Source: Glaciozyma antarctica PI12
Taxonomy: Eukaryota; Basidiomycota; Microbotryomycetes; Kriegeriales; Camptobasidiaceae
DNA length: 64,000 bases
Direction: 5' to 3'
Assembly (NCBI GenBank): GCA_002917775.1
Contig: KZ627151.1
Location: 880,607 to 944,606 of the forward strand
The stretch's first letter is position 1. The number at the start of each line of letters is the position of its first letter. The notes below the pieces were generated by a model. The model saw nothing but the letters and a program-made list of their open reading frames with translations. It was not told where the DNA came from and did not search any database. A program made the translations under genes and the position numbers. Positions 21,117 through 51,709 of the stretch are shown here, piece by piece.

Positions 21117-21784
21117 TCATAGCCCACTCATCTCTACCTCGCCGCAGAGACGCGCGCTCCCCCGACTAACCTGCGAAGGGTATTCCTCCTCTGCTTGCTC
21201 TGCGTCCTCCCCTCGCTCCAAGCTCGTCTGGGAAGCTCCCAACCCGCTCTTCCAAACTAAAGCGTAATACAAAGCTCTCCTGCCATCGTCCTCCTCCGCC
21301 AGAACGCCCCTCTCGTCTCCGACGCCGAATTCCGAGGTCAGCAATATGTGCTTAGGCCACTGCTTGACCTGTTCCGTCGTGTCTATCAGCTTCTCGCACA
21401 GAACGCAGCGGAGAGCAGCGTACCTGGCAGTCTCTGGAGCAGTACACCGTCACTTCGCACTTGGAGCACTTCTTCTGCAGCGCAGGAGCCACTGCGAACA
21501 GATCCATCAGCTCCCTCCCAACCTCCGCCGTGACTCGCCGAGGACGCACAAATCTTTCCGCACTTCTGGCAAGGAACCGTCGCCCTAACCCGCACCTTCC
21601 TCTCCGCCGCTTCCATCGCAATCAGGTCCTTCTCCCACTGAGGAAGCGCAGAGTAGAGAGCTGGATTGCCGACTTCGCGAGCTCGGCGGGTCGTCTGCGG
21701 GCTGAGGAGCCTGTCGGCTGGAGAGAGGCTAGAGAAGGGGTCGAAGCCAGGATGGTGCTGAAACTTGCTGAGGTCGGGTGACAT
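21117..21784 (-). CDS. MYND-family copy A, C-terminally truncated
   Basis: Member of a five-copy family in this window; function unknown. The ATG at 21784 gives MSPDLSKFQHHPGFDPFSSL and the family N-motif LSPADRLLSPQTTRRAREVG. The MYND zinc finger is split by introns: CQKCGKI ends exon 1 (21550), LAPALQKKCSKCEVTVYCSR and DCQ form exon 2, then an intron, then WPKHILLTSEFGVGDE. The last zinc ligands of MYND (the H-x3-C that copies C and D place at HKSVC and HKALC) are missing. The reading continues to ALYYALVWKSGLG, where it matches ALYSALKL of copy D, then diverges and stops at 21117. The large C-terminal module is absent. It may make a short protein or be a decayed copy. Confidence 0.6.
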
Positions 21785-22110
21785 CGAGACGAATGGTAGG
21801 AGGAAGAGAGCACTCAAAATCTGGGAGCTGCGTGCTCAAGCCGCCTCCTCACCGTCCCTTTGTTCGCAAATCGGACTTCAGTTTGTGAAAAGAGAGCGCA
21901 GACCTGCATGACTTCTCTTTCAAAGCCGTCCACAGCTGCGCGTTGTTCAGCACAATCTTTCGCTGAAAAGGACGTAGGTCATCTGGGACCGCAAATCTCG
22001 CTATCGAGAGTGAGGAGCAGCGCAGGAGCAGTGACGGAGGAAGGATTCGCAGCAGCTCTCCGAGACAAACAAGCCTTCCTTGCAAGCACAAACGCCTCTG
22101 TCTCCGTCTC
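21785..22110. other. spacer between two MYND-family copies
   Basis: About 326 bases between copy A and the end of copy B, both on the minus strand. Open frames here lack family motifs. Nothing recognised. Confidence 0.4.
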
Positions 22111-22876
22111 TCAGTAATCCTGCGAAGAGACGGCTCGTCAGCCCGGGGGATCAAACACGAGCAGCGACTTTGATTCTCACCCTCCGCAACCTCGCCACAT
22201 CCCTGGGCGACAGCTTCGATCCCGAAGCTGGGTCGACCTCGCCGGAGACCAAGTTGACGCGAGCCTTGAAGTTGAAGTCGAAGTTTGGATCCCGCATCGA
22301 AGCCCATTTGCTGGGCGAGGCAGACTCGAGCTCGGGACGGACGGGAAGAACGATCGGCGACATGCACAGACTCTGCCTGGGAAACAAGGTTGATTAGCGA
22401 CGGCTTCGCGAGCAAATGGGGTCGAACGCACTTCGAGCCGTGAATGCCTTGCCAAACTGCGACCGTGCGAAAAGCGTCGTCCTGGATTCCGGGCAAGCCG
22501 CACGACTTGTTCGCACCTTCCTGCGATAGCGTCTCGATGAAGTCGACCTCGTGGCCCGGCGCAAACTTGAACCTCTCCCGAATCTCCAGAGGGCGCAGCA
22601 CGACGGCTTCGACGATTTCGAACGCCGCCGAGGGACCTTGAGCGTTGGGGAGGTAGCGAGCGTGGATGAAGAGGGAGTCTTCGAGATAAGCTCCTTCACG
22701 TCCTCCGTTAGCCTTGCGAACGCCGCAGGATTGCAGATGACCTTCGCGTGGCGAATGAGCGTCGGGCAAAGCAGGCGTTCGCCGGGGGACAGGGTCGCGA
22801 TAGGATCGTCGTCCGGCTTGAAGTGGACGAGGAAGCCGCCGGAGGTGGGGTGCTGAGTCGACATTGGTGAGCTCAT
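22111..22876 (-). pseudogene. MYND-family copy B lacking the zinc finger
   Basis: Starts at ATG 22876 with MSSPMSTQHPTSGGFLVHF and the N-motif LSPGERLLCPTLIRHAKVIC and LTEDVKEL. At about 22690 the reading shifts frame straight into EDSLFIHARYLPNAQGPSAA, which belongs to the C-terminal module. The whole MYND finger and the segment after it are therefore gone, and the two halves are out of frame. The C-module is otherwise well kept: AAFEIVEAVVLRPLEIRERF, DDAFRTVAVWQGIHGSK, then an intron (about 22380-22435) and SLCMSPIVLPVRPELESA, FNFKARVNLVSG and SGSKLSPRDVARLRR. A last intron leads to GAT TAC TGA at 22111, at the same position as the last intron of copy C. Probably a pseudogene made by an internal deletion. 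Confidence 0.62.
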
Positions 22877-23281
22877 GTCGCGGTGGTGGAGAGAGACGAA
22901 CCGTTGGGGAGCGTTCGGCCCTCGTGGACTCCGCGCGCGGGCCTCTGGCTTCCAAGCTTCTGCGGAGATATTTCGCGTTCGTTGCGAAGAAGAGCTCAAC
23001 AAACCCTAAACGGGGCAAGAGGGCTGTGCCGCGAGAGCGCAAGTAATCGAGCTGCTTTATAAAGCGGAGGACGCTGCCCGAGACGAGCGAGAAATGGAGC
23101 TCCTTCTGAACGAGCGATGCGGGCTTTGCGTTTTTTGGAGAAGAGAGGCGGTCCTGCTGGAGCTGCCTGGAAGCTGCGTCAAGCACATTGAGAGGGTAAG
23201 GACTTACAAGCGTAGAAAAGAGGTCGGATTCGCAGACTTCCGTCGTTCAAGCCGACCAGCCCTCTCCGCAAGCAATCACAC
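22877..23281. other. intergenic
   Basis: Between copy B's 5' end and the 3' end of the dehydratase gene. No gene seen; likely holds the copy B promoter remnant and the dehydratase terminator. Confidence 0.45.
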
Positions 23282-24432
23282 TCATTCCACCACCGCCTTC
23301 CCGGTCATATACACCTTCCCCTCCGCATCCTCCACCCAAAGCTCACACTCCTTCCCTCCCTCGCTCCACTTCCCCTTGAACTCGATCGCCCGCTGAACGA
23401 CAAGCGGCGCCGTAGCGCGGTATTCGTACGATTTGATCCTTCCAGATGGCGGAGGGGCTGCGGTAAAGGAGTAGACGGGGATGAGGAGGATGGGGGGATG
23501 GGGGAGAGGGAGGGGAGGGAGTGGTCTGAGGGGAGGAGGGAGAGGCGGAGGGTGTTGAGGAGGAGGAGGGCGGTGAGGGGGCCGTGGACGATTAGGCCTG
23601 CTCGAATGTGGAGTTAGCGCAATTTGAGGAGAGGATAAAGACCGCACCTTCGCGACCTTCGACACCGATAGCGTACCGCTCGTCCCAGTGAATGCGATGC
23701 GTGTTGAACGTGAGCGCCGAGAACCTCGTCAGCATCTCAGGCGTAGGCAAGAACGGCATCCCAAAGTCCGCCTCCCTCTTCTTCCCCACTAATTTCGCAG
23801 GCTGCACCGGCGTCGTCCCCAGCGGGAGGCGATACAAGTGCGTCCTCCGCTCCACGACCGCCTCCTCCCCTCCTGCACGGATCCTCCTCTCCTGCTCAAC
23901 ATACCACCCCGCCCTCCCATCCTTTCCCACCCGCTCCTTGACGCTCGATAACCGACTCGTGCACTCGACCGCTTCGCCAATTCGCAGCTCCTTCCCCGCG
24001 AGAAAGTCGAACCTTCCCCCGACCCACATCCGCTCGAGCCCGCCTGGGGGATGAAGAGGGGTTCGCTCGGTGCCGTCGGAGCGGAGGGAGGAGGTGGGTA
24101 CGTTGGAAGGGTGGAAGAGGATGAGGGACCAGGCTTGTGGGAGAGCGTCGCTGCTCGGAGTGGTGGGGTCAGCTCGGCCTTCTCAAGGGGACGCAGTTCG
24201 GCACGGAGACGCACCCAGTGTTCCAGGAAGAAGCGAGGCCGTCAGTCTCGATAGTACTGACGAGGCTACGGCACCGGGAGAGGGAGACGACGTCCTGTTC
24301 CACGAGCGAGACCTGCGGGGCACCGGCGATCCAGGCGGCGAGAGCGGGACTCGCTTGGCTGGGGAGAGTCGAGGCGCAGCGCGTGGCTGTTCGAGCAGTT
24401 GTTCGGAGCAGTCTGGCTGGAGAGAGCAGCAT
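23282..24432 (-). CDS. HTD2: mitochondrial 3-hydroxyacyl-thioester dehydratase (Htd2-like)
   Basis: Dehydrates 3-hydroxyacyl-ACP in mitochondrial type II fatty-acid synthesis, which supplies octanoate for lipoic acid; hot-dog fold. The ATG at 24432 opens MLLSPARLLRTTARTATRCA, an Arg/Ser/Thr-rich, acid-free sequence typical of a mitochondrial presequence. After an intron (about 24210-24150) come DALPQAWSLILFHPSNVPTS, RMWVGGRFDFLAGKELRIGE and ERRTHLYRL. The hot-dog signature FNTHRIHWDERYA (about 23710-23670) carries the expected HRIHWD motif with the active-site His. A second intron (about 23600-23650) precedes GLIVHGPLTALLLLNTLRLS. The C-terminus is ELWVEDAEGKVYMTGKAVVE, with the stop at 23282. 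Starts only 86 bp from the divergent M28 peptidase gene. Confidence 0.9.
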
Positions 24433-24518
24433 ACTGGTCGAGCTGGAGGCGTGCGGGGAGAGGACAACCGTCGCGAGGAGCGCGTTCGTCCCTTGTTCTC
24501 CACCTCGACCTCGGTGAG
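24433..24518. promoter_or_regulatory. 86-bp shared region between divergent start codons
   Basis: The start codons of the minus-strand dehydratase (24432) and the plus-strand M28 peptidase (24519) are 86 bp apart. Both 5' leaders and any shared promoter elements must lie here or overlap the coding regions. No TATA box was seen. Confidence 0.6.
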
Positions 24519-26347
24519 ATGGGACTCAACTGGATCGCCTTACTCGCCCTATCCCAGCTCATTACAGCCAGCCCCGTCCACCCCTCCTCCCTCGTTGTCG
24601 CCCCGCTCGCCGACGCACCTCCTTGCGCGAGCTACCACGGCCCTATCGGCTCTCTCGCTCTCCTCTACCTCCCTCTGTCCTGCCCAGCGCCATACGGGAC
24701 TCACAGCAACCCCTTCGACTGGTCCGCAGGCCGGCTAGCCTGGGTTACCGAATCGGTGCTCGATGAGGAGGTGCACGAGCTCAGAGAGCGCAAGGCGGAG
24801 CTAGCAGCCGCGCGGATGGTGGACGTCGGAAGACAGCTACGGTTCGGATTGGAGGAGGAGGTGAGGGTGGTGATGGATCTCGGGAAGGCGGGGCAGCTGG
24901 TCCAGTTCTCGTCGGACGCCGCTCTCCTCTCCTGGACCTCCGACGCAGCTCATGCTCTCACAGAGCTCGTCGCCATCTCCTCCCTCCCTCTCCCCCTCCC
25001 CAACGCCCTCCGCACGAGCTCTACTGGATCCTCGACAGTCGACGAGCGGAGCATCAAGCGCATCGTCGACCACCTCGCAGCACTACGCTTCTCCCCGCTT
25101 ATCTCGACTCTCCTCGCTACGTTCCCGCGCAAGCAGTTTAAGAAGGATGTGCAGTGGCTTACGGGGGAGAAGCAGGGTGGGGAGGAGGGGGATAAGTGGG
25201 TTTCGAGGCATTCGATGAGCGAGGGAGGGGCGAGAGCGAGTGATTGGATCTTGGGTGCGTTACGTTCGCTCAAGTGACGGAGGAGAGAGCTAATGCGGTT
25301 GAGAACGCAGGACAACTGACGGGGTTCGGACTGAATTGCTCTCAGCGATACTACCTTCCTCATTTCGCCCCGCTCGTGACTTGCGAGATCGCAGGGACCG
25401 ACCCCACCTCAGGCACCTACGTCCTCGGCGCCCACTTTGATTCCCGCGGCGTACGTCCCTCATCCTCTCTCCTTTTCCACGCTGACCCCACGCGACAGTC
25501 CTTCGGATACCCCACCGCCCCAGGGGCAGACGACGATGGATCTGGCACCGCTCTCCTCCTCTCCATCGCGCGACACATCAGCTCTCACCGCCTTACTTTC
25601 CGCCGGAAGGTCGTCCTTGCTGCGTTCAGTGGAGAGGAGCAGGGATTGCTGGGGAGCAACTTTTTGGCGAGGGAGATGAGGGAGAGAGGGGAGGATGTCG
25701 TGCTCATGGTTCAGGCGGATATGATTGGTAAGCCTTTGCGTAAATGTGGATGGAGGAGCGGTTGCTGATACGGTGTGCAGGGTATCGGAAGCCGGGCGAG
25801 CCAGTACGCGAGTTTCTCGAGCGCTTCGGTGCCGAGACTGATTCTCTCCTTCGCAGCGCCAGATCGCCTTCCCCGACCTCATCGGCCTCCCTGAAGCGCG
25901 TTACCTACTCGGCAACATCTCGACGCTTTACTCTCCCGAGCTGGTCGTCGGCCTCACTCCTGGTGAGTCTTTTCGCTTTGACCTGGGCCGAGCGAGCGAG
26001 ACTGACGCTGTGCGAAGCGTGCTGCAGTGATCATCAGTCTTTCGAGCAGCAGGGTTTTGCGAGTACCTGGGTTCGTCCTCTTCCTTCCTCCCACCACCCA
26101 TCGCCACCCGCACGTCGCAGCCCCAGCTAACGTGATCCTCCTCACAGGTCTTTGAACGCAACGGTCCCATCGCAGATCCCTTCTATCACAACTCTGGCGA
26201 TCTCGTAAGTCCCTTTTCGCTCTCCTTTTTCCCCCGCTAATTATTTCGCAGTCGGAGAGGGAGGGGTACGATTTCGAGCAGATCTACCTCACGTCTCGCG
26301 TCGTCCTTGCCGCCCTCCTCGAGGTAGCTGGATTCGCGTTCGTGTAA
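24519..26347 (+). CDS. secreted M28-family zinc peptidase
   Basis: Predicted extracellular or vacuolar metallo-aminopeptidase of family M28. The ATG gives MGLNWIALLALSQLITAS, a classical signal peptide. The prodomain-like first third (24580-25250) is hydrophilic. Two-zinc ligand motifs follow in order: GTYVLGAHFDSRG (about 25415-25450, His and Asp), APGADDDGSGTALLL (about 25520, bridging Asp), LAAFSGEEQGLLGSNFLA (about 25615-25665, the general-base Glu and a zinc Glu), MVQADMIG (Asp) and CCSDHQSFEQQGF (about 26025-26055, His). All key residues are present. A 23-nt exon (25781-25803) encodes YRKPGEP. About seven introns with GTAAGC, GTACGC and GTGAGT donors. The C-terminus is YLTSRVVLAALLEVAGFAFV. 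Glutaminyl cyclase has a related fold but usually lacks this set of ligands. Confidence 0.92.
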
Positions 26348-26802
26348 TGCGGTCGCCATTGGAATTGCATTACCTGCTGAGGAACCGGCGAGAGACTTGG
26401 CCCGAAAGAGGACCCATCGATGGGAGAGTGGAGTTGGGGTTTTTGTGGAGGTGGAACTGGGGTTTGGGGCGTGCAGCAGAGATGGCTGCTCGCGCTGTGA
26501 GTGTCGTGGTCGTGTCAACGACGACGAGAGGAGGAAGCGCCGAGGAGAACAATGGCGCGGAGTTGTACTTAGCAGAAATCGATGACGGGCTCGCTGGCAG
26601 AGCACGCTGGGGGGGAAGATCCCTTTGCACTTGTCTCCCCGCACCTCTCTCCTTCCCCCACTCTCTCCTCAGCCAGAAGCACCAGAAGGACCCGTTCCTA
26701 CCAGCTAGGCCACCAGCAACCGACCTCGTCCAACTCGACTCTCCCTCGGCCATCCCTCCCCCCCACCTCCCTTTCGTCCCTCTTCCTAATTCCAACTCGA
26801 CC
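26348..26802. other. intergenic, glycogen synthase promoter
   Basis: Between the peptidase stop and the glycogen synthase ATG. CT-rich near 26640-26800. No gene seen. Confidence 0.5.
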
Positions 26803-29800
26803 ATGAGTTCTCCTCAGCGCTCAATCCATGATCACGTACGTCCCGGCGCTCTCTAGCCTGCTCGGCGGGCACCCGCTGACCTTCGCTCGTCCTCCACAGC
26901 TCCTGTAAGCTGCCCCGCTCCATCCAAAGGTCTCATCTCCGACCATCAGCTGACTCCGGTATCGCCCTCTTTGCGCTCGTTCGTACGCAGGTTCGAGATT
27001 GCCTGGGAGGTAGCAAAGTACGTCCCTGCCTTGCTGTGGCTTCGAGGCGAAGGCTGACCCGGCATTTCTCCCCCAACAGCAAAGGTCAGCTTCCGATCGG
27101 CTGGAGCCCCATCTCGAGGACGGATAACGCCGCGCACTGGCTGGGGTTGAGTGGCAGGAGTGGCAGGAGGACGGAGAACAACCCGGCGTGCTCGAAGGAC
27201 TCAGCTAACGCCCGCTTTTTGCTCCAACGCAGTCGGCGGAATCTACACCGTCATCAAGACCAAGGCGCCCGTAACTTGCCAGGAGTATGGCGAGCGGTAC
27301 ACCCTCATCGGACCTCTCTCGTACAAGAGTGCGCCTATGGAAGTAGAGGCGATCGAGTGGGACAAGCCTCTGCCCGAAGGAGTCGGTACGTCCATCTCCC
27401 TCCCTCGCCCGCCCGCCTACCCGCAGTCGCTCCCCGCGCCCGTCTGGGCTTTCCTACCCCTTCCCCTGGTAGACAGCGGAACGAAGCTGATGCTGTACGA
27501 TGACTTGCAGTGGCAGACTCGACTCATCTCGCCCTCACTCAGACCCTCTCCTCGATGCGCGACCGCGGCGTCAAGTTCCTTTACGGGCGCTGGCTCGTCG
27601 AGGGAGGACCCAAGGTCCTTCTCTTTGATACTGGAAGCGTTTGGGACCGCCTCGACGAGTGGAAGACGGATCTCTGGAACCTCGCTGGCATCCCGACTCC
27701 TCCCAACGACACGGAGACGAACGAGACGATCCTGTTTGGTTACCTCGTCGCCTGGTTCCTCGGAGAGGTGTGTTCACGTTCCCACAGTCCGAGGAACGAG
27801 GAGGAGCTGATGCGCGCTCGTAGTTCTCCGCCCGAGAGCGCTCCAAGGCCATCGTCGCTCATTTCCACGAATGGCTCGCCGGACTCGCCATCCCTCTCTG
27901 CCGCAAGCGCCACATCGACGTCACGACCATCTTCACCACGCACGCGACTCTCCTGGGTCGGTATCTCTGTGCGGGAAGCGTCGACTTCTACAACAACCTC
28001 GCCTACTTTGATGTCGACCACGAGGCGGGCAAGAGGGGGGATCTACCACCGCTACTGCATCGAGCGGAGCGCGACGCACTGCGCTGATGTCTTTACGACT
28101 GTCAGTCATATCACGGCGTACGAGAGCGAGCATCTGTTGAAGAGGAAGCCTGGTGAGTTCGGAGCTGGGCATGCGGAGGAAGCGAGAGCTGATGCGTGTG
28201 CGCGCAGATGGAGTTCTCCCGAACGGACTCAACGTCACCAAGTTCAGCGCGATGCACGAGTGCGTCCGTTATTCTGCGACAGGAAGACGCAGAAGCTGAT
28301 CCGCCCCTTCGCAGGTTCCAAAACCTCCACCAGGTCTCGAAGCAGAAGATCAACGACTTTGTCCGAGGACACTTTTACGGTCACTACGATTTCGACCTCG
28401 ACAACACGCTCTACTTCTTCACCGCCGGTCGCTACGAGTACCGCAACAAGGGAGTCGACATGTTCATCGAGTCCCTCGCTCGTGCGTCCCTCCTCCACCC
28501 TCCTCCCTCCTCCATCCCTCCTCTCTCCTCTCTTCTGAGCTCCGGAGCTAACGAAGCGAAACGCAGGCCTCAACTACCGCCTCCAGGAGATGGGAACCAA
28601 GATGACGGTCGTCGCGTTCATCATCATGCCGGCTGCGACGCACTCGTACACGATCGAGGCGCTCAAGGGACAGGCCGTTACGAAGCAGCTTCGTGATACG
28701 GTTAGTGAGATCCAGAACCGCATTGGTGCGAGGCTCTTTGAGCGGACGGCTCGCTACACTGGGTGAGTTCATTTCTCCTTCCTCCGCCGTACACGCGTTG
28801 GCTTCCCCCTCTTCGCTCAAGGTCTTTAGCTGACACCAGACACGCACGCAGAGAGCACGGAACCGAAGTCCCCGACGCGTCCACCCTTCTCTCGGACGAG
28901 GACAAAATCCTCCTCAAGCGTCGCGTCTTCGCCCTTCGCCGCAACTCGCTCCCTCCCGTCACGACGCACAACATGGTCGACGACGCCAACGACCCTATCC
29001 TTAACCAGATTCGCCGAGTCCAGCTGTTCAACCGGACGAGCGATCGCGTCAAGGTCCTCTTCCACCCCGAGTTCCTCAACGCCAACAACCCGATCTTGGG
29101 ACTCGATTACGAGGAGTTTGTGAGGGGGTGCCATCTTGGTGTCTTCCCTTCGTACTACGAGCCTTGGGGTGTACGTCCTTTTCGCTGCCAATCGAGGACG
29201 TGGAGCTGATGTTGTTGATCTCGCAGTACACGCCCGCCGAGTGCACTGGTTCGTCTTTCGCGCGTTCTCCCGAGTATCGCGAGGGAGGAACTAACGCGCT
29301 CACGCAGTCATGGGAGTTCCCTCGATTACGACCAACCTCTCCGGCTTCGGCTGCTTCATGGACGAGCTCATCGAAAACTCACAAGACTATGGCATCTACA
29401 TCGTCGACCGCCGCGCCAAGAGCGTCGAGGACTCGGTCGCGCAGCTTACGGACCAGATGGTTAGCTTCTGCCAGAAGACGAGGAGGCAGAGGATCAACCA
29501 GAGGAACAGGACGGAGAGGTTGAGCGATTTGTTGGATTGGAAGAGAATGGGGTTGGAGTACGCCAAGGCGAGGCAGCGTGCGTTCCTTTCTCTCGTCGGC
29601 CGTACCTGCTGCTAACGTCGACTAAACGAACGCGCAGTCGCTCTTCGCCGCGCCTACCCCGACTCGTTCGCCGACGACGAGTTCGATTTCGACGGCGGCA
29701 ACGTTCGCATCCCTCGTCCCATGTCGGCTCCTGGGTCTCCTCGCTTCCTCAGCGGCATGATGACTCCCGGTGATCTCGGAACTCTTACCGAGGTTCGTCC

Positions 29801-30190
29801 CTCCTCCACTCTCACCGAATTCTCACTCACGCCTCGCCATCGCAGGAGATGCAAAGCCTCGGAACGTCCGACTACATGGGCGCCCAGAACTGGGAATCGA
29901 TGATGAGCAAGGGCAAGACGGACGACGAGGACGAGGGTTACCCGTTCCCTCTCGTGCTCAAGAAGCGTGGAGGAAGCGTTTCGTCCGGGTTGGCAAGCGG
30001 GCAGACGACGCCCGGGACGTCGAACGGGCGCTCGGCGGGGAAGCAGAAGATCTTGAGTGAGGGGGATCTGCAGGCGGCTGATGAGGCGTTGGCGTACCGT
30101 GAGTTTGCTTTCTCGCTTCGTTCGTTCGTGCGAGGGCTGATGAGGTTAGTTGCGCCAGATGGAGGACAGAACGGCTCGAACGGCTACTAA
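26803..30190 (+). CDS. GSY1: glycogen synthase (GT3 family)
   Basis: Extends glycogen by adding glucose from UDP-glucose; cytosolic. The N-terminus is assembled from very small exons: [11 protein letters not shown], a 5-nt exon CTCCT (26900-26904) giving LL, a 27-nt exon FEIAWEVA (26991-27017), a 5-nt exon CAAAG (27080-27084) and [20 protein letters not shown]. The product [20 protein letters not shown] matches the yeast HLLFEVATEVTNRVGGIYSV. Later landmarks: [95 protein letters not shown] and [20 protein letters not shown] (donor and active-site loop). The Arg-rich helix [20 protein letters not shown] is the glucose-6-phosphate sensor. The C-tail has Ser/Pro sites ([20 protein letters not shown]) expected to be phosphorylated. 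TAA at 30188. Confidence 0.96.
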
Positions 30191-30609
30191 ACGTGGCTCT
30201 CCCCTCCCTCTCGTCTCGTTCCTTACCTCCCTGCAACCTCCCCTTCGTTGGATCTCTTACACTCTCCGCATCGCGACCTCCAAAAACTCAAAGCACTCCC
30301 TTACCCTCCCTCGCTCTCGTAGTAACTTGAACTCGACGGGGAGTTTCTGTTTATAATGCAGACGTTCTTCTGGAACCGAGAGGAGGAGAGCGAGCGTTGA
30401 GAGAAAGCCCAAGCAGGCCGCAGCTGCGAAGGGGAACGCGACTAGGGCGTTTGTTGGCGTTTAGCGGTCTCCCTCCTTCCGCTCACCACCTTCGCACGCC
30501 GACCCACCTGAGCGCTTCAGGCAAGGCCGTGACACCTGCCAATCTCACCTGTAGCCCGCCAGCCCCGTCGCCGCCCTCGAAACCCCGCACACTCCAACCC
30601 TCCTTCGCG
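30191..30609. other. intergenic
   Basis: Glycogen synthase 3' flank and upstream region of the DUF7918-like gene. No gene seen. Confidence 0.45.
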
Positions 30610-31590: not shown

Positions 31591-31593
31591 GCG

Positions 31594-31863: not shown

Positions 31864-32034
31864 CTGAGGGATTGCTGTTGCTTGTTGTGAGGAATACAGT
31901 GTGTTTTATGTATCGTCGAGGATGGGTGTGGAACCAGCGAAACGAGAGCTGCGAAGGACTCCGCGGAAATCAGCCGAATTCTCGCCGCCAACTCTTGCCT
32001 CCTCCCTTCACCCTCCCCACGCAGGAGCTGCACA

Positions 32035-33236
32035 ATGACGACCTTGTACCGTACCTTTAGCGGCCTCACCCTCGCCTTCCCACAAGGAGTCGACCTCGTC
32101 GCCATGATGTCTCCCGGCGAGCGCCTCCTCTGCCCGATCATGTTTCGCCACTCGAAGGCCTTGGCCAACTCGCGCGCATTCGAAAAGCTTCCGGAGAACG
32201 TGAAGGAGGAGATAGTGATGAAATGGACGCAGCTGGCGGCGGACCGCGAGAGGGGAGAGGCGTGCCAGAACTGTGGACAGACGAGTGCGTGGTCTTGATT
32301 CGGGCGTGCGAGCGAGGAGCCAACGTCAGCAACACAGTGGTTCCCTCGGAACTGAAGCGCTGCTCGGTGTGCGAGACGCCGTATTGCGGTCGCTCTTGCC
32401 AGGCAAGTCGTCTGTGCCGTCAAGCGCGCGAGGCTGCTCGCTCACCGCCATTGTTCCTGACAGAGGAAGCACTGGCGGTTCCACAAGTCGGTCTGCGCCG
32501 TGAAGGCCAGCAGCCAGCAGCTTCAGCGCGATGTGCTCCACTACTGCCCGACTTCGGAAGGGGTCAAGGTGAACGAAGCACTCGCACAGTTCACCAGGGC
32601 CGCCCGTTCGGAACTCCGAAACGCCATCGCCCCCGCTCTCAAGCTCGCGACCTCCTCCCGGCTGCACGAGACGCATTCGCTGTACATTCGTCTTCGCCAC
32701 CTCCCCGACGTCTAAGATGCGACCGTGGCGTTCGAGATCCTCGAAGCGGTGGCGCTTCCCTTTTCCGAGATCCAGAATCGAACCTACGGAGAGAATCTCG
32801 CGCAGAAGCTGTCGCAGCAGGGAATCAACACGTCGGATGGTGTGATTGGAATCGGAGAGGAGGCGTTCTGCACGGTGGCGGTCTGGCATGTGGATCCTCC
32901 CCAGGAGTGCGTGCTCCCGTTCCTCCTTTTGCCAACGCTGACACTTTTTCCATTCAGCCGTCAATTCAGGATGACGCCATTGGCCTTTCCTGTGCGTTAC
33001 TTCGAAGTGATCAAGGACCTCTACCCGACGAAGCGGCGCGCCTCGCAGAATCCCAACTTTGCGGCCAACTTCAAGGCTCGCCTCAAGGTTTCTGCAGCGC
33101 TGGAGCCGTGGTCTGGCTCTAGGCTGTCTCCCAGGGATATCGCGAGGCTGCAGTATGTGAGTAGCGAGGCATTGGTCGTTTGCGGAACGTCGCTGACGGC
33201 CTCGGTTCGCTCTCCCGCAGGTGGATTGAGAACTGA
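32035..33236 (+). pseudogene. MYND-family copy C, full architecture with an internal stop
   Basis: Best reference copy of the family. MTTLYRTFSGLTLAFPQGVD and N-motif MSPGERLLCPIMFRHSKALA, LPENVKEEIVMKW. The MYND finger is complete: CQNCG, intron 1, ELKRCSVCETPYCGRSCQ, intron 2 (32403-32463, GC-AG, donor GCAAGT), then HWRFHKSVC. The C-module follows: ELRNAIAPALKLATSSRLHE, HSLYIRLRHLPDV, then a TAA at 32713 exactly where copy E reads VRDPSLAFEI, then DATVAFEILEAVALPFSEI, QQGINTSDGVIGIGEEAF and CTVAVWHVDPPQEC. An intron (about 32908-32957) precedes RMTPLAFPV. Next come NFAANFKARLKVSAALEP and SGSRLSPRDIARLQ, and a last intron to WIEN and TGA at 33234. Domain conservation on both sides of the TAA suggests recent loss, or readthrough. 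Confidence 0.65.
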
Positions 33237-33837: not shown

Positions 33838-37367
<3,530 letters not shown>

Positions 37368-41099: not shown

Positions 41100-41413
41100 G
41101 TGGCGTGCGGTTGGCGGTGGATGTAGATACATTGGAGTTCGTGGTCGTCCCTTTTCTCTCTCCCTCTCCCCTCCCTCCCTACACCTTCGCTTTCGCGTCT
41201 GTGCCCTTTTATCCCCTCCTCCTCTCTATCTACCACCCCATCTGTCCACACTCATCACTCCGTCCCCCTCCCCCTCATTCGCATCCCCATCCACTCTCTC
41301 TACCCCTCCCGTTTTGCCCATACCCCCCGCGCTTTTTTCCTTTGCTCAATCGCAATTCGAGTTGATCGAGTACGTTTGGTGCTGCATTCCACTGCTCCTC
41401 GCTCTGCTCTGTT

Positions 41414-41444
<31 letters not shown>

Positions 41445-41588
41445 GGCAGAACTGAGTCGACCTATCAGCGAGAGGCAGCCCAACACGCCCCCCCCCCCCG
41501 AGCAGTTCAGGGGATCTCTTTCTCACCTTCTCAACACTCTCTCGCTCGACTCTCACCGACGCCACTCCTTCCCAGCTACTACGGCACC
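41100..41588. other. intergenic with a trinucleotide microsatellite
   Basis: Between the acidic protein and the TLC gene. It is CT-rich and holds a CGT/GTC trinucleotide repeat at about 41417-41443 and a short C run near 41490. No gene seen. Confidence 0.5.
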
Positions 41589-42895
41589 ATGCTCTCGACG
41601 CTCCTCCCTCACGGCGGAGTCCATATCCTGAGAACATACCTCGCATCCCTCATCCTCCTCCCGACCCTCTTCCACCTCTCCGTCTCTCACCTCTCCCTCG
41701 CCCCTCGCCCCGCCCCCGCAGACCCCCAACAAGCGGCCAAACACGTCGTCTTAGAATCCAAGAACGCGCGCAAACGTAGCTGGATCTTAACGGGAGCTTC
41801 CTCCCTCCTCATGACTATCGGCTCGTTGCCTTTCGTATGGGATTTCGTGAGCGGGGGGATGGATGTAGGGAAGGTGGGGAGGCGGGAGGGGTTGGCGCAG
41901 GGGGTTACGGCGTTCTTTTTGGCGTATTTGACGGTGGTGAGTTGCGCTGTTTGTTGGGGGAGGAGTAGGAGCTGATTGAGGTGCAGGACTGTGTGGTTGG
42001 GTGGAAGTGCTATAGGGCGCAGTTCACGGTGCTCACGGGGTGGGTACATCATTCGGCGTATACGGTACTGCTGTGGTACATCTGTGAGTCGGGCTGGCGT
42101 TGCGAAGGGAGCGGGAGCTGATTGTTGATCGCAGTACATCGAGGGTTTGCCCACGTTTTCGCCCTGGCGGCGTTCATGGAGGTGCGTACGCTCTGCTGGT
42201 ATACTGAGAATGCGCACTGACGACGGTGGCAGCTCCCGACCCTGGTTCTGAGCGTTGCGATGCTCGTACCTTCCACGCGATCCGACTTCCTCTTCACGAC
42301 CCTCTTCTTTCTAACCCGTATCGCCTTCCACGCCCTCCTCCGTACGTCTTCTCTTCCTCCTCACAACCCCACTAACTCCCCCGCAGTCCTCCTCTACTCA
42401 ACCCCATACGGCCGAACACACGGTACCCAATCCTTCTCTCCCACCGGCACGCCACTTCCCTCCCTCCTCCCAACCATCGGTCTCCTCCTCGCCGCCCCTC
42501 TCCACATCACCTGGTTCCTATCCTCCCTCCGTCCCCTCCTCCGCCAGCGCTCCAAAGCTCCTCCATCCCCTTTCCTCCTCCCCGCGCGACAAATCACTTC
42601 GTACCTCTCCTCCCGCCCTCTACCCTCTCTCCCCCGTCTTCCGTCCCTCGTCTCAATCCCTCGAATTTCGACGATCCCGCGCCTTACCCCCCGCCTTTCG
42701 TTCCGAAGACCGGCGCTTAGACCATTGAGCGTAGCGGACGTCCTTGGCGGGATGGGAGTATTTGGATCGGAGAGAGTAGCGGGAGGGGAGAGGGGTATTG
42801 CGGAGATTAGGAGGAGGGCGGAGAGGGGGAGTGAGGAGGTCAAGAGGTTTGGGGGGAGGGTCAGGAGGAGGGTGGGGGCGTTGGCGGGGATTTAG
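41589..42895 (+). CDS. TLC-domain membrane protein
   Basis: Predicted multi-pass ER protein of the TRAM-LAG1-CLN8 (TLC) superfamily, closer to TMEM56-type members than to ceramide synthases because the Lag1 motif is not seen. Start MLSTLLPHGGVHILRTYLAS; then ILTGASSLLMTIGSLPFVWD and GVTAFFLAYLTV. After intron 1 come DCVVGWKCYRAQFTVLTGWV and HHSAYTVLLWYI, whose His-His pair is the family hallmark. After introns 2 and 3 come LHRGFAHVFALAAFMELPTL and SDFLFTTLFFLTRIAFHALL. After intron 4 a further membrane segment (IGLLLAAPLHITWFLSSLRP) precedes a basic, Ser/Pro-rich cytosolic tail (RQRSKAPPSPFLLPARQITS). Introns are about 41940-41985, 42085-42135, 42182-42231 and 42342-42385. Stop TAG at 42893. 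Confidence 0.88.
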
Positions 42896-43300
42896 AGGCG
42901 CTTTTAATGTAGATTGTGTGAGTATTTATGGTGGTAATCGTTCGCGTGACCTTTTTGCGGTGAGGTGAGGTGGGAGAGAGAGCTGCGAGAGCTTCGGTAG
43001 CGAGGAAGAGAACGAGCGAGGTGTGGGCCGAGGTTTGCTTTGGTGAGCTGGGCTAGATGTGCGCTCCTAAAGAAAGCAGTGTGCAGAGGCCAATTAGCAG
43101 ATGAGAGAGCGAGAGATTGTGAAGTAGAACGAAGCGTGCGACGGTCGAGCGAGGAAGACGGAGCGAGCAGGAGTTTGGCGCAGAATTCAAGGCGATGCGG
43201 TCCTGATTCCACGATATCGTGATTCGATCCTACAACACCGTCCTCAATAAACCTGAGAGAGAAGTCAGCCCGAGCCCAAAGTGATCTCCCAGCTACCGAC
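42896..43300. other. convergent intergenic region, possible copy D last exon
   Basis: Between the TLC stop (plus) and MYND copy D (minus). If copy D uses the GTGAGT donor near 43306, a last exon begins FIEDGVVGSNHDIVESGPHR, similar to the WIEN end of copy C. That frame then runs on without domain resemblance, so I did not extend the gene. Confidence 0.35.
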
Positions 43301-44472
43301 TCACCGACTCACCCCCTCCAATCTCGCCAAGTCCCTCAAAAAAGGCTTGCGCGCAGACGACGGTTTATTCCCGGAGAGCTCGAGCCTCGCCGCCAGGTTC
43401 TTGTGCCATTCGACGTCCTCCACCGAGCTCGAGATCGCGGGACCTCGAGAAAAGTTGTTCTTGTCGAGTACGGGCAAATTGGCAGGCTGGATCGAAGTAG
43501 CCAGCCTGCGAAGGTGGTCAGCTCCTCCCGCGCCAATTCGGAAACGAGGAACGCACGTCTTGTCCACCATCATCGCCTGCCACACGACTGCGACGCGGAA
43601 ACCTGCGCCCGCGTTGGCCATGCCCAGAAAGTTGTTGAGCTCGTCTTGCAAGAGCTGTTCCGAGATGCTGATCGGGATGCCATTCGGGCTGATGGTGACG
43701 GGTGCGCCAGGAGGAGAGAGTATCTCCTCAATCTGGACGTGAGTGAGAACTAGGGCCACAATGATCTTGAAAGCGATGCTGGAGTCCTCCTCATTAGGAA
43801 CTGGGCGAAGGAGGATGAATACGGCGTGGATCGTGTGGAGAGGGGCGTCTGAAGTGAGCTTGAGGGCCGAGTAGAGCGCGACGTCGATTTCGGCACGCCC
43901 TTCCGTGACAAAGGTGTACATCGTGGCGGCGGAAGCGATTCCTCGCGGGTGGTGAAGACTGTTGGTCTCCAAGATGTGCTGCTGCTGAATGAGGTTCTTG
44001 CACAGAGCTTTGTGCAGAGGCCAGTGTTTGAGCTGCGTAAAGCGCATCAGCAAAGACGGAGGAAGAGCAAGGACGAGCAGACGCCACCTGGCAGGCTCGA
44101 GAGCAGAAGTACGACCGGCGGCATCGTCCGCACTTCTGAGACGACGAGAGAGGTAATTGGGATCCTCCTCTTAGCTCGTAGGTCGTTCGCCGGCAAGCAA
44201 ATACGCACACTTCGTTCCACAGCAGCCACACACCGGTGTCGATGTCCCTTCCCTCGCGTCTTGCCTCGACTGCAGTGCCCGCATCTCCCGGTAGATCGTC
44301 TTCCGCACCTCCGAAGGGAGCTCCCTGGTACCAGGTACCAGCTCCTCAACGCTTCGACGTTTTGAATGAACGTCGGACAGGTGGCTTTGTCCTCTGGAGA
44401 GAGGGCGGCGAGACGCTCAGCGAGCCCGGCAACGCTGAATCCGGGGTGGGATACGGGGCTGGTGGTGCTCAT
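43301..44472 (-). CDS. MYND-family copy D, nearly complete
   Basis: The ATG at 44472 gives MSTTSPVSHPGFSVAGLAER and N-motif LAALSPEDKATCPTFIQNVE. Near 44340 the homology moves to another frame (RELPSEVRKTIYREMRALQS) without a normal-sized intron between, so a frameshift is likely. The MYND finger is complete: VCGCCGTK, an intron (about 44137-44212), KCGRCRRSYFCSRACQ, an intron, then HWPLHKALC. The C-module is intact: AEIDVALYSALKLTSDAPLH, IHAVFILLRPVPNEEDSSIA, FKIIVALVLTHVQIEEIL, LLQDELNNFLGMANAG and FRVAVVWQAMMVDKT, an intron (about 43505-43555), LATSIQPANLPVLDK, VEWHKNLAARLELSGNKPSS and FLRDLARLEGVSR. Stop TGA at 43301 if the last family intron is not used. The MYND finger usually binds proline-rich partner peptides; no SET domain is present. 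Confidence 0.62.
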
Positions 44473-46489
44473 GGCAAGCAAGTTTATGGAGAGCAGAGCA
44501 GAGCAGACCTGAGCAGTTGAGTCCCAGCCCGAACAGAACAAAGGGAGACGAGGCGAAGTCTCGACGCGACGTCTTTTGTTGGACTGTCCTCGTCAATCCG
44601 TGGGGCAGGTTCACCCTCGGTACTGCTTCCGAGAAGGAGGTACTGGAAGCCAGCGCACCTCAGCGCACCGAGATCGTGGCCTCCTCCCTTCGACGTCCTG
44701 CTCCGCTCGTCTCAATACCGCCACGAATTTACCATGCCTCCGCCACAGCTTCCGCGTGAGCTAGGTCCCCCACGTCTGCAACGTCCTCGGGGAGCGGTTT
44801 AGGGCCTACAAGTCGTCGAGCGGCGGGCAAGTCGGCGAGCGTGTCGGCTGGTGCAGAAGCAGGCGACGCAGCTCTCGGCACGGTCGAGGACGGAGCAGAG
44901 AAGCTCGCGTGAGATCTTGTAGGCGGATCCAAGTACCAACGAGGAGCGTAAGAGGTGCCAGCGAGTTGCGAGAAGTTGGTCGGAGGGGGACCTTCGTGCC
45001 AGCTCAGCTCGCGCCTTTCTCCCTCAGTCCTCCTTCTCGACACCTCAAACTCGAGCACCCGCTCAGCCCGGACCGTTTAGGAAGACTGTGGAGACTGTGA
45101 GTACGGCAGTGCAAGCCTGGAGGCTGTGCGTTCGAGCAAGAGCGCTCGAGCGCCTTGGGGTTCGGAGCTGGAGCTTGGGCGGTGGAGCAGCTACCAGCGT
45201 CTTGTCAGCTGTACGAATAGCACGCCGTAAGCCTCGAGCTAATCCTCTTCCTCCAGAGGTTTGGCTCCTGCTCCCCCGCGTGCGAACGCTTCCCTCCCCC
45301 CTCCGGCCTCTCCTGCGCGCCTCCTCTCCCCTCGACGGTCGACCACTTCCTTCTCAAGAGCTCGCGAATCGACACAAAGCTCCTAAAATTTCCTGCTCTG
45401 CCTGTGCATGAGGAGGGGAGGGGTTGTGCAGGCGGATCTGCTCGTCGTGATCGTGGGATCGGCTGAAGGGACGAAGAGCGAGGCAGATTTGCCTTGCGGA
45501 GAGCGGGACAGCCCAACAGCTTATCTTTAGAAAGCTGCGCTGCGAGGAAACTGGTTTGAGCGAGCTGGGTGGAGCCTGGGGAGCTGGAGGAGACTGGCTG
45601 GCTTGCTCGACACCACCGCTCGCTTCGCCACGCTCTTCGGCCTGCTCCTTGCCCACTGCTTTTTGCTCTCGCGTGTTCGTCGAACCTAACGCGCAGAGTA
45701 CGGAAGCGTCGGAGCCGGTACCCCGGACGCTGTTTCAAGCTGGAGCGGACCACACTCGGTCGACTCCCTACTTTCTCTCTCAGGCGTCTACCGGCGCCAG
45801 CTGTCCTGCGACGCTCCATGCCAGTGCCAAAAGCTCTTTTATCCATCAGTTCTCCCGCTGTTTGAATCTGTGCCTCCCTGATGAACCGGAGGCGAGCTGT
45901 CCTCTCTACTCATCCTAATTCTTCGCTGCGCTGCTCGTCCTCATTCTTCGCTGCGCTCTCATCGCTACTCACCGACGAGGCTTCAGCGTCCTCTCGGTTG
46001 TGACGACCTTTCTCGACAGGTCCTCTCGTTCCAAATCTACGTCCTCAACAAGGTTCTCGCACCAACCACGCCGCCTCGAAACCGAAGGCCTCCCTCCTCT
46101 CCTGACTTCGCAGCCGAATCCCTTGGACCACAATCCTCACTCTAGCCTCCACGATCTCTCTCGTCCAGATCGTCAAGCGCGGACTCTGCATCATCGTCCT
46201 CAGGGAGCGAGGCGAGCTTTCGTATCGCCCAACACCTCCTTCAACTCGCCTCGTAAACTAGCTGAGCGTCTGATCCTGAGGAACTGAGGAGCTAGGCAAG
46301 AGCTGAGACTGTGGGTATCGTTGCGTAGAGTATTATTGTCGGGCTGGAAGTCAAAAGTGAGCTCCGAGGCGAGGGGCGGTGGAGGAGCGAGGGTCGCAAG
46401 TTAAAGTTGAAGCGAGGGCTGCAAGTCAAGGCTGACAGAGCTGCAGCAGCAGAACGTTCCGCTTTCATAGACTTGACCAGATTCTCGGT
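44473..46489. other. gene-poor region
   Basis: About 2 kb with no gene I can support. A minus-strand frame at 44729-45058 contains SWHEGPPPTNFSQLAGTSYA and PRWYLDPPTRSHASF, which looks less random than most, but it has no ATG and no matching neighbours. A minus frame of 213 codons at 45205-45846 is Arg/Ser-rich with no motif. Possible conserved-looking splice acceptors exist near 46019. Confidence 0.4.
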
Positions 46490-46960
46490 GAATAGCCTAA
46501 GAGAAGACCGGGGGAAGCGTCAAAAAGCGAGCGAGCTGCGAAGCGAGGGCTGACGTTGGCGAGGTTCCCAGGGAGCCATTTCTTGCTCTCCTTTCGTCCT
46601 CTCAGAATCTTTGGCTGTTATTCACCTTAAGTCTCGTGCAATTGGGTCTGGGAAAGAACGAGGGGAAGAGTCGAAAAGCGAGCGAGCTCGAGCGACGTTC
46701 GAATTTTGTGAGGTTCGCACGGATGGACTTGGTGCTCTCCTTTCGGTCTCTCGGGACCTTGGCTGTTCCTCTCTTTGACGCGTGCAGCTTAGCTTGGGGA
46801 AGAACACTGGAAGAATCGATCATCGAGTGAGCTGCGAAGCGACGGTCGACTTTTGCGAGGTTCCCTGGGCTGACCTCCTCGCTCTCCTTTCGTTCCCTCG
46901 GAATCTTTGGCTGTCCTCCTCTTCTAGCCGTGCAATACAGCGAGCACGATGGAACATCTC
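46490..46960. repeat. three imperfect tandem units of about 150-165 bp
   Basis: Three consecutive segments share the order AAGCGAGCGAGCT, then GCGAGGTTCCC or a variant, then CTCTCCTTTCG, then TCTTTGGCTGT. The CTCTCCTTTCG core recurs at about 46588, 46735 and 46883, and the TTGGCTGT core at about 46611, 46758 and 46911, a spacing of about 150 bp. On the minus strand the units read through in one frame with repeated PRERKES, PRDRKES and NLAKVDRR, NLTKFERR segments. The copies have diverged. No matching copies were seen elsewhere in the window. Flanking sequence upstream (46380-46480) also holds degenerate fragments. Confidence 0.65.
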
Positions 46961-47118
46961 TCTCTCTCTCCACTGCGACTGGAACGATGGAAAGGCGAAA
47001 GAGGGCAGCAAATTGCACAAAAGGTGGCCGCAGAGGGCCAGGGTGGTGAAGGGGGGCGTACACAATAGGGATCGAAACAAGCGAAGACGGGGGGTTGTCG
47101 ACGAGGTCGAGGAGGCCT

Positions 47119-48068
<950 letters not shown>

Positions 48069-49557
48069 TGTTGTTGTTGAAGAAAGTGGCTGGTCGAGGG
48101 TGTGGTAGGAAGGAGAAGGGGGGAAGTCGAGAGGATGCCCTCCTTATACCAAAATCGAGTGACTCCGCCTGTCCACCACCCGCCGAGTTGAGCTTGGTTG
48201 AAAATCTGAACCCCGCGCGGAAAGGACCATCAGCCAAAATCGACTCGGGCCTTCAGGGTGATTTCTGGTCCTCTTTCTTCAGTCTCGAGCCTCTTGAGCA
48301 CATGGGAGAGGTGCCAGTATCACAAGGAGACTAGGCCAGGATGACCTGCCAAACGGCATCACCTGAGATGCGCTGAGGAAGGAGCAGCTGCAACGAAACC
48401 ACGGGCGAGGCGAATCTGGGATTTGGCTCAACTCGACTTTCACCGCCGTACCTTCCCATCACCTCCTGCCTTGTCCAACGCGTGGTCAAGTGGAGCCTAA
48501 TATACTGTAAGAAGGCCCCGCGAGTTTGAAGGCGCAGCGTGAGGTTGGGAGCCGGCGAGAGGAGGTACTAATCTGGAGTCGTGCTGGTCAACAACACTTG
48601 TTTGTTCCTCCTCTCTCCCTCTTGCCTCAACGTATTCGGGGCCAGTCTGGCTAGTGGAGCTACTTTTACGATGCTGGAGAGCAGCCTGAGCCAGCAAGCG
48701 GGGCCTGGAGAACTCCTCACGACGCGACAGAATCGACAGGTCAGGTGACGAGCGATTCTCCTCGTTCTGGCCGTCTCTCCCCCTTTTCTCGAGTGTTCAA
48801 GCGCAGGCTGTCGTAGGAAGCAGTATTGGGTGGAATATAACGATGTCAAAAGCGAACTCTGCTCATCGGCGGGCGAAATCACTCTTCCAAAGACTCGCGC
48901 CCTTCATTCTGCTTGTTCTCCCTCTTCCTCTGCTTCTTTCCCTACTCCTCCGAGTGTAGTATCTGCACTAAGAAAGCCTTCCGGAGAATCAGAGACGGCA
49001 GCGAACGGACGAAGCTGCATCCCGGAAAGTTGACCACCGCATTCAAGGTTACGCGCCCAACATCCTCGTCTCCCCCTCTCTGCTGTCAAGCATCGACTAA
49101 AACTGCAAGGCGTAAAGCTCTCCAGGGGAGAAAAGAAGCGCGTTCCCAGGCTACCAAGCCTCGATGCCCCGAATCAGAAGCGAGTCAACCGAGCCTGGCG
49201 CGCGCAGTTCCGCTGGTCGAGTCCGATCCCGCGACCTCCTACGTGTCTATCTTCTTCAGAAGACAAAAAGTACGCAGGAAGAAGGAGACGCGAAAGATGC
49301 TGTGCTGAGAGGGAACATACCTGGGATCGACGTTGCGAATCCTCGCAAGACAACGTCTCGCACTTCTCGAGCCTCGAGGAGGGTCACTCGATCCAGCGCG
49401 CGAAGAGCAGTGAGCACACGAACAGCAGGGGAGCAAAGAGAAATCCAGCAGATCTTAGCAGCGGCGAGCAGACTCAGGAACGGAACGATGGTGAGAGGGG
49501 ACATTCGTATAGCGTGCATTGCGTGGTGGTACTGCGTCGTCGTTCTGGGGATCCCGT
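48069..49557. other. intergenic, H3 promoter side
   Basis: About 1.5 kb between the H3 start and the end of the next minus-strand gene. No gene supported. The first few hundred bases must hold the H3 promoter; no specific motif recognised. Confidence 0.45.
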
Positions 49558-50398
49558 TCAAGCGTTCGTCGCAACCTTGGGCTTCGACTTCGGCGTGATA
49601 ATATTCCCTCGTCCGCCTGCCACCAACACGCATCAGCATCCCCTCCCCCACACGCACTGCGAACGACTCACCACGACCACTACTAACCCCATTAACCCCC
49701 GGACAGCCCTTAGACCTTCGCTCCTCCACCTCCTTCTCCTCCCTCACCAACTCCATCTCCCTCTCCCTCCCCTCAACCCCCGTGCTAGGACTCCTAATAT
49801 TCCCCCTCCCCCCTCGTCCACTCGCTACCACTTCCACCCTCCCTCGACTCCTACTCCTACTTGCGCTATCCTCACGAGCTTGGGCAACGACAGACGGGAG
49901 CTCGGCGCCGAGTTCGAGGTGCTCCTCGCCTAGGATGGGATCGAGTTGGCGACCGCGAGAGGGGGAACGGATGTTGCCTGCGCCGCCGCGGCCGGTGGAA
50001 TAAGGACGGGGAGAACCGTTCGTGGTGGTCGTGTTCATGGTCGTGTTCGTCTGGGTGGCGCGGAGGGGTGGCATGAAGGAGATGCTCGTCCGACCGCGGG
50101 GGTCTTCTGTCACTGCTGGCATGGGCGTCATCAGCTCCCTCCTCTCTGTCTCTCTGCGGATAGACGCACCTTCCCCACCACTCCTCCCACGAATCTCCTC
50201 GCTCATCGAATCCCCGACAGTACGATCCCGACTGAAAGACCTCCGGACCTTGCTCATCAGTCCCCCGAGCCTCGAGCTACTAGGCGACCGGCTAGAACGT
50301 TCTTGGGACGGAAAAGGGGTGGGGACGGTAGCGGTGAGTTCCGAGATGTTGTCGAGGGGCGTGGATTCGGTGGGAGGGGGACGCTCGAGAGTCGCCAT
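49558..50398 (-). CDS. Par32-like protein (DUF3602)
   Basis: Member of the fungal Par32 (DUF3602) family, disordered proteins phosphorylated downstream of TORC1 that in budding yeast inhibit ammonium transporters; the role here is inferred. MATLERPPPTESTPLDNISE; LMSKVRRSFSRDRTVGDSMS; then the diagnostic repeats STGRGGAGNIRSPSRGRQLD (about 49985), VASGRGGRGNIRSPSTGVEG (about 49790), and VSSGRG at about 49680. There a GTGAGT intron (about 49610-49668) joins to GRGNIITPKSKPKVATNA and TGA at 49558, giving the third repeat and a normal C-terminus. A 54-nt segment at about 50118-50171 (GTGCGT to CAG, with CTGATG) is probably also an intron, but in frame. Unspliced, the last repeat would be lost. 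Confidence 0.88.
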
Positions 50399-50604
50399 CG
50401 TTTGGAGAAAGGATTTTTGGGGGCGGGGTAGCTGCTGTGGAGTTGCCGGCGGGGGGGGGGCGGCTTGGAGGTGTGCTGGGGTTGGTACTGGAGGGCGCGA
50501 GTGGGACGGAGAGGACGAGTGGTGTGGAATAGGGAGAGAGAGGGGAAGTCAGCGGGTCCCCACGCGAAGAAGAAGCCAAGGGCGGGCGCAGGATCAGCTG
50601 CCAG

Positions 50605-51709
50605 ATGACGAGCTCAGCCTTTCCTTCTTCACCTCCAGTGGAGCACCTCTACCAGGCAGAAACAGGCGTTAATACCGCATCGGACCGACCCAGCTTGAGC
50701 CCAACGACCGCCGTCTCCTCTTCGACCGCTCAACGACCGCCAAGCGCGAACGGATCCTCGACGAGACCTGCCGACTTCAGGCGTTCACCTAGGCCAGTAG
50801 ACGCGCCCAATGTAGGTTAGAGGGCAGGAAAGAGTGGGGCGTGGGCTGGAGCTGGTGCGGGGGTGGGAGGTCCAGGAGATCGCGGTCAATCGCTCGAAGG
50901 TACGCTCTGCTAACACCTCCCTCCCGCAGGTCTCGCACTACCCCACCCACAAAGACCTCTGCAAGCTCGTCTCCGCCCAAGCCTCCAAACTAGAGTCCCA
51001 AACCCTCTCCAAACCCCGTTCCGCCATCCTCCAATCCGCCCTAGACCTCTACGTCGCCGACCTCAAACCCGAACTCGCCTGCGCCCTCTACTCCTCCCTC
51101 AAACTCCTCTCCTCCTCGATCCACCTCACGCACGCTCTGTACATTAAGCTCAAGTACCTCCCGGACGTACGGGACCCCTCGCTCGCGTTCGAGATTGTCA
51201 GCGCGGCGGTCCTCTCGCATGCTGAGCTCGGAGCGTTGTTGCCACCTTCTCCGGGTGCACCGCCGCCCCGGGAATGGTTCTCGCAGAAAGGCCTCAACAC
51301 CCTCTTCGGTATGGGAGGCTTGCCGGCGAGTCAGATCAGGACGAACGTCTTGTGGTTCGCGACGTGGGACGAATCGTGCGACTTCCTCCTTGCGTGTTCG
51401 CTGAGGAGAGCTGATGATTGTGCGGCGCAGTTCGTCAGCCAAGATGACGCCCGCAAGGCTTGCCGCCGTACGTCGAGAAGAAGGACATTGACCAATGCTC
51501 GCCGGCGGTTTGGAACGCGATGAACGACGAGCGGTGGGAGGAGAATTTGTTGAAGAGGTTGAGGGTGTCGGCGCAGGGGGTCGTGAGCGACAAGATCAAG
51601 GTGCCACCGAGGGCTTGGGCGAGGAAGAATGGGGTGAGTGAGCGAGGTGGGTGGGGAGGATGTCGCTGACTCTCTTGTGGTGGTGGTGCAGACGTACTCT
51701 ATTATTTGA
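50605..51709 (+). pseudogene. MYND-family copy E, degenerate
   Basis: The N-motif survives only as LEPNDRRLLFDRSTTAKRER in a frame that stops at about 50790. The first half of the MYND finger is missing; only HYPTHKDLC, its last ligands, remains (about 50935). The C-module is well kept: RSAILQSALDLYVADLKPEL, CALYSSLKLLSSSIHLTHAL, YIKLKYLPDVRDPSLAFEIV, SAAVLSHAELGALL, FSQKGLNTLFGMGGLPASQI and NVLWFATWDES. After an intron (about 51378-51430) come MTPARLAAVRREEG and, one frame over, CSPAVWNAMNDERWEENLLK and PPRAWARKNG. The last family intron leads to TYSII and TGA at 51707. The missing half-finger and the frame shift at about 51485 argue for a pseudogene, although the long open stretch 50870-51380 is strikingly intact. 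Confidence 0.6.

Follow-up and report, generated by a model that had tools for sequence, protein, structure and literature searches.

A telomere-near cluster of five diverged and altered copies of a MYND-linked gene family in Glaciozyma antarctica

We analyzed a window, the whole stretch of 64,000 nucleotides of the yeast Glaciozyma antarctica PI12 at C6:880607-944606 (contig KZ627151.1, assembly GCA_002917775.1), together with the genome that contains it (19.98 Mb searched, 18 contigs, GC content about 0.60). The window holds five related loci, labelled A to E, in which parts of a gene with a short N-motif, a MYND finger and a further module (the C-module) recur on both strands within 31 kb. 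An earlier account made from the letters alone, the sequence-only reading, had described five such copies, and genome searches with the C-module and the N-exon confirm them. Contig C6 (958,398 bases) carries TTAGGG repeats at its end, a telomere about 26-57 kb away from the copies. Gene structures come from aligning a profile to DNA in a way that allows for splicing and frame breaks, and some introns were placed by eye. Positions without a contig name are window coordinates.

21117..21784, minus strand: copy A, with three exons (21784-21550, 21491-21424, 21368-21117) that hold the N-motif and a MYND finger lacking the final Cys
22111..22864, minus strand: copy B, an N-exon fused to the middle of the C-module, each matching copy C
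22431-22377 (by program) and 22180-22120 (by eye), minus strand: introns of copy B
32035..33229, plus strand: copy C, with exons 32035-32284, 32338-32402, 32464-32906, 32958-33156 and 33221-33229 and a complete finger
32713..32715, plus strand: TAA stop that falls within the C-module of copy C and is the sole lesion observed in that copy
43244..44472, minus strand: copy D, with an N-exon from the ATG at 44472, a complete finger and a complete C-module
44087-44033 and 43556-43506 (by program), 44208-44170 and 43312-43253 (by eye), minus strand: introns of copy D
44330..44340, minus strand: frame break that separates N-motif from finger in copy D and falls in a short tandem repeat
50927..51691, plus strand: copy E, the end of a finger (HxxxC) and a C-module, with the finger exon and any recognisable N-motif missing upstream
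51376-51430 (by program) and about 51634-51691 (by eye), plus strand: introns of copy E
51460..51486 (near 51465), plus strand: frame break within the final third of the C-module of copy E

The C-module ties four of the copies together. In whole-genome searches, the C-module of D found E at an E-value of 2.8e-19 and C at 3.3e-11; that of E found D (9.3e-20), C (2.1e-14) and B (1.5e-7); and that of B found C (2.6e-12), E (4.7e-8) and D (0.005). Copies B, C, D and E each match the C-module of D, E or B significantly and so belong to one family, and profile alignment found no C-module match in A. Copy A is joined to the others by the N-exon, since that of C, used as a genome query, returned itself, B (2.5e-11), A (0.0014) and nothing further at an E-value of 0.5. 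The N-motif of D beat 100 of 100 shuffles in two-base blocks when scored against a profile from A, B and C, whereas that of E was at chance level with the same profile (34 of 100 shuffles reached its score). Thus the N-motif that the sequence-only reading assigned to all five copies stands for A, B, C and D but not for E. That reading had also set alignment beyond the finger as a test, and the copies do align there, B, C, D and E through the C-module and A, B, C and D through the N-motif.

MYND fingers (PF01753) carry seven Cys and one His in the pattern CxxC, CxxC, CxxxC, HxxxC. As spliced, copies C and D hold the complete pattern; A lacks the last Cys, E has only HxxxC and B has no finger. 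The Pfam MYND match passes the cut-off in A (5.1e-4, at C6:902027-902080), and neither the C piece (0.0012) nor D (0.0217) reaches it; the fingers are split by introns, and this depresses the scores.

Four intron positions are common among the copies, not all four in every copy, which extends the two positions claimed earlier. Intron 1 (phase 1) lies within the finger (32285-32337 in C, 21549-21492 in A). Intron 2 (phase 0) follows ..CQ in C, D and A and in E matches the start of the exon; in copy C this intron (32403-32463) has a GC start (GCAAGT..CAG), and A and D carry GT introns there. Intron 3 (phase 2) interrupts the C-module (32907-32957 in C, 22431-22377 in B, 51376-51430 in E and 43556-43506 in D). 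Intron 4, placed by eye, comes shortly ahead of the last codons, so that B, C and D end in two codons and a stop and E in five. Introns 1 and 2 are also present in a family member on contig C5. In copy D, the first finger intron (44208-44170, 39 bases) was placed by eye and the program picked another; the program also proposed an intron at 43699-43655, yet the exon is open there without splicing. Because introns are kept at shared positions, the copies are not retrocopies. Processed copies are ruled out, and the copies spread as genomic DNA, as had been proposed.

Frame-disrupting changes are present in B, C, D and E. Copy C reads through an open frame downstream of its TAA to the end, and that frame is still C-module. 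Copy B lacks the start of the C-module as well as the finger; the join lies near 22684-22676, and N-exon and C-module are in different frames across it. In copy E, nothing of the finger is recognisable by eye beyond its HxxxC end. The sequence-only reading had named the missing finger of B, the stop in C, the frame break ahead of the finger in D, and the incomplete finger and frame break of E, and all of these are found. Its description of A as altered holds for the missing C-module and last zinc ligand, the last Cys of the finger, but not as a frame break: A has an open three-exon frame of 184 codons from 21784 to 21117, with two good introns.

Splicing might in principle bypass these lesions, and introns able to restore the frame were enumerated for C, D and E and for B. 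All those listed for C cut residues that align with the other copies, and we rejected splicing as a means of hiding its stop. For D, some candidate introns, such as those of 44 or 56 bases with GTGCGG donors, leave N-motif and finger in place at the cost of a conserved linker. For E, candidate introns of 62 bases (GTTCGC..GCAAG) and 38 bases preserve the downstream frame. In B, the C-module could be brought into frame by 109 candidate introns; the ten of these that were listed take away part or all of the N-motif. We take the breaks in C, D and E to be real, those in E and D with less certainty than that in C.

How far does the family extend beyond the window? Searching the genome with the C-module of E gave 14 places at an E-value of 0.01 (four in the window, ten outside) and 17 at 0.1. 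Eleven of the 12 outside loci, on eight contigs, align to the family profile with scores exceeding 60, in line with the earlier suggestion of relatives elsewhere in the genome. The twelfth (C8:1076 kb) was dropped with a score of 23. C16:2043.7 kb (0.0385) was counted together with its neighbour, and C4:1222 kb (0.037, 26 codons aligned) was kept on account of an adjoining MYND match. The 11 outside members, the C5:126 kb gene among them, contain no stop or frame break in 1599 aligned codons, as against three in 1079 for the window copies. Counted by locus, frame lesions occur in 3/5 window copies and 0/11 outside members (Fisher p 0.018); counted per codon, p is 0.065.

These counts bear on whether sequencing or assembly errors created the stop and the frame breaks. 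The break of D falls in a short tandem repeat, and the aligned part of each of C, D and E holds a single small lesion, which would suit errors. The same method, however, found the aligned codons of the outside members clean, and the loss of whole modules from A and B is not the work of base errors. Moreover, exons of a glycogen synthase and an acetylglutamate kinase/reductase nearby have open frames and strong domain matches. We regard errors as a quite unlikely source of the lesions.

A different possibility is that the copies are not pseudogenes and that part proteins are still used: a finger-only A, a D with finger and C-module, and a truncated C of 187 residues. In this case, one would point to the open frame and good introns of A, to the retention in D of every zinc ligand and of the C-module, with candidate introns that join its N-motif to the finger, and to the complete finger of C upstream of its stop. 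However, the sequence after the stop in C still reads as C-module, as recent loss would predict, B has no finger and E only the end of one. Chance open frames are also common in this GC-rich window, where 219 open stretches of at least 90 codons overlap 19000-54000. We consider this reading of the copies doubtful. Judged from their sequences, three of them (B, C and E) are probably pseudogenes. The product of A may be a protein with a finger only, and D may yield a protein of finger and C-module through a later start or other splicing.

The copies are strongly diverged. The DNA of D, the only copy tested genome-wide as DNA, finds itself alone in the 20-Mb genome. Within the window, DNA alignment joins B and C by three exon pieces at 71-75% and D and E by one 38-base piece; the other matches are two B-D pieces outside genes and 21 bases common to the query stretches of A and B, which overlap. 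Protein identity ranges from 29% (A-D, D-C) to 46% (B-C) over the nine window pairs with sufficient overlap, of ten in all; the pair A-E has none. Ratios of nonsynonymous to synonymous substitution rates (dN/dS, with bootstrapped 95% ranges) are 0.44 (0.29-0.66) for B-C, 0.36 (0.14-0.78, from 45 codons only) for A-B, 0.51 (0.31-0.73) for D-C and 0.53 (0.29-0.78) for D-E. Against outside members, D gives 0.41 (0.25-0.67) with C5 and 0.67 (0.44-0.96) with C1. In a tree from which A and C4:1222 are absent, B joins C (97% ultrafast bootstrap) and the other window copies are weakly placed.

These values matter for the pace of turnover. The sequence-only reading had proposed rapid birth and death, that is, young copies replaced quickly, and five altered copies within 31 kb might suggest as much, as might the wide variation in MYND counts between Rhodotorula strains reported in a published survey (PMC10662464). 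The comparison does not support the word "rapid". D without DNA-level copies elsewhere, protein identities of only 29-46% and dN/dS estimates below 1 point to old duplications and late damage, and recent, quick turnover is unlikely. The window copies look instead, from their sequences, like old paralogues that were long constrained and are now decaying.

Nor do the copies seem to have been carried by a mobile element. Dispersal over eight contigs and on both strands could be read in that way. With the settings used, however, the window copies share no flanks or terminal repeats, and only exon pieces align; the exceptions outside genes are the two B-D pieces and one GC-rich inverted pair. We think it very improbable that an element moved them.

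Where, then, did the cluster come from? The N-motif was sought in the 700 bases before the finger in nine outside members, and none of the nine rose above chance (19-100 of 100 shuffles reached their scores). Since the N-module occurs in A-D and was undetected in the nine other family loci examined, A-D most likely arose by local duplication. We think it likely that the telomere-near cluster consists of five old paralogues of a dispersed, diverged yeast family that combines a MYND finger with an undescribed C-module. The family would have been under long, perhaps relaxed, protein constraint, and the window copies would then have been damaged one after another: B by a deletion, C by a stop, D and E by frame breaks, and A and E by truncation. 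Local origin and loss of function are what we infer here from the homology, introns, lesions, position and divergence observed in the DNA.

Several results weigh against this account. The sequence-only reading had looked to dN/dS between copies, and although the point estimates fall below 1, some ranges include it: 0.83 (0.47-1.35) for A-C, 0.79 (0.52-1.16) for E-C5 and 0.62 (0.38-1.01) for the C4 pair (C4:1213-C4:1248). The values from pairwise distances, without bootstrap, are about 0.84 for A-D and 0.89 for E-C. Synonymous sites are near saturation, so that all dN/dS values are rough. A single clade of B, C, D and E is neither supported nor rejected (approximately unbiased test p 0.36). The lesion counts compare the window with outside alignments that are partial (26-231 codons), and a local alignment can stop ahead of a lesion. 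Finally, when both the window cluster and C1 are left out, the mean relative distance of the family to contig ends rises to 0.37 (Kolmogorov-Smirnov [KS] 0.048; mean test 0.10).

That distance is one of several measures of position. Five of 16 family loci fall inside 31 kb, which random placement reached in 0 of 200,000 trials. Taken singly, the 16 loci lie at a relative distance of 0.24 on average from the closest contig end, where 0.5 would be expected. Merging neighbours to 10 clusters gives 0.31 (KS 0.005; mean test 0.02), and omitting the window cluster gives 0.34 (KS 0.016; mean test 0.046), the same as omitting C1. A weak family-wide bias to contig ends is suggested. Among the matches listed, other contig ends with TTAGGG repeats are both of C2, both of C4 and the starts of C3 and C5; such repeats are absent from the far end of C3 and from the ends of C1, which was left out in one test for that reason. 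C1 has internal TTAGGG-like arrays at C1:77112-77231 and C1:777671-777778, both on the minus strand, which are either mis-joins or true interstitial arrays.

What might the C-module be? Pfam returned one weak fn3_4 match (0.22) and nothing else, neither SET nor Mss51, for 10 C-module sequences or pieces, in a search where HMMER drops most matches above about 0.1. By sequence, it matched six solved chains at E-values of 0.009-0.82, named as tandem-repeat, de novo or dnHEM1, and no natural relative at an E-value of 1. The predicted structure of the D C-module has a mean predicted local distance difference test score (pLDDT) of 52.9 and is not usable; Foldseek with this model gave no PDB match at 0.001. 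In a collection of proteins from other sources, D has relatives in P0001 (62% identity over 67% of the query) and P0005 (78% over 28%); by eye, P0003 and P0004 look similar to the C10 member, and P0002 to the C1 member. Pieces of E, B and C gave 1812 candidates and none at an E-value of 0.01. In the family search, scores were computed for the 7997 candidates with the most words in common, so that a lack of relatives says little.

Because MYND fingers are protein-binding modules, intact members would probably be adaptors in which finger and C-module each bind a different partner. One can go further and suppose that the C-module is an undescribed yeast domain that defines an adaptor family, and that N-module, finger and C-module were lost separately near the telomere. 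What remains would then be reduced forms (finger-only in A, C-module-only in E, N-less in D) that work with the full-length members or compete with them. We offer this as speculation that has little chance of being right.

How does the cluster compare with known systems? Variable MYND counts among red yeasts, Rhodotorula species included, are already published. One study (PMC4469406) gives 26 for R. glutinis, 1-11 for the eight other single species listed and 41 for an Agaricomycetes column, and another (PMC10662464) gives an average of 24.7 (standard deviation 15.1) for Rhodotorula strains, with 7 in R. sphaerocarpa. Copies C and D share the finger ligand pattern of these PF01753 proteins. 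What those papers report, in the parts available, are counts; the C-module, the window cluster and broken copies are not described there, nor were module and cluster found in the accessible literature searched, PMC7499883 included.

Mss51-type and SET/MYND (SMYD) proteins also carry a MYND finger beside a larger module. The likeness ends with that arrangement, as the C-modules here have no SET or Mss51 Pfam match. Fungal subtelomeric gene families lie near telomeres and gain and lose members, and the window cluster, 26-57 kb from a telomere, resembles them. However, the copies here are old rather than near-identical, members such as C6:341 kb and C9:379 kb lie deep inside contigs, and the others lean only weakly towards the ends. 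The cluster is a new but ordinary case of gene-family turnover. The C-module is unnamed and worth a family entry, and its family, which decays locally close to a chromosome end, may account for some of the red-yeast variation in MYND counts. At such loci, automatic gene models will mix intact and broken genes.

The genome holds 31 MYND places at an E-value of 0.001, and a second MYND cluster lies at C15:810151-911241, with ten finger matches (nine at 0.001) in 101 kb, 54-155 kb from the contig end. Its first part, which covers three of the ten finger matches, has no family-profile match at a score of 60. This part (piece L062) contains an overlapping 136-base direct repeat of 93% identity at its positions 6258-6513, a possible sign of recent duplication there. 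In the window, an apparently intron-bearing gene with an open frame and a Core histone match (Pfam, 3.9e-28) lies between D and E at 47306-48229 on the minus strand. Nearby are a pair of 116-base direct repeats at 46503-46914 (76% identity, 296 bases apart, with a 27-base copy between them) and a tandem pair of 25-base units at 45906-45955 (88% identity).

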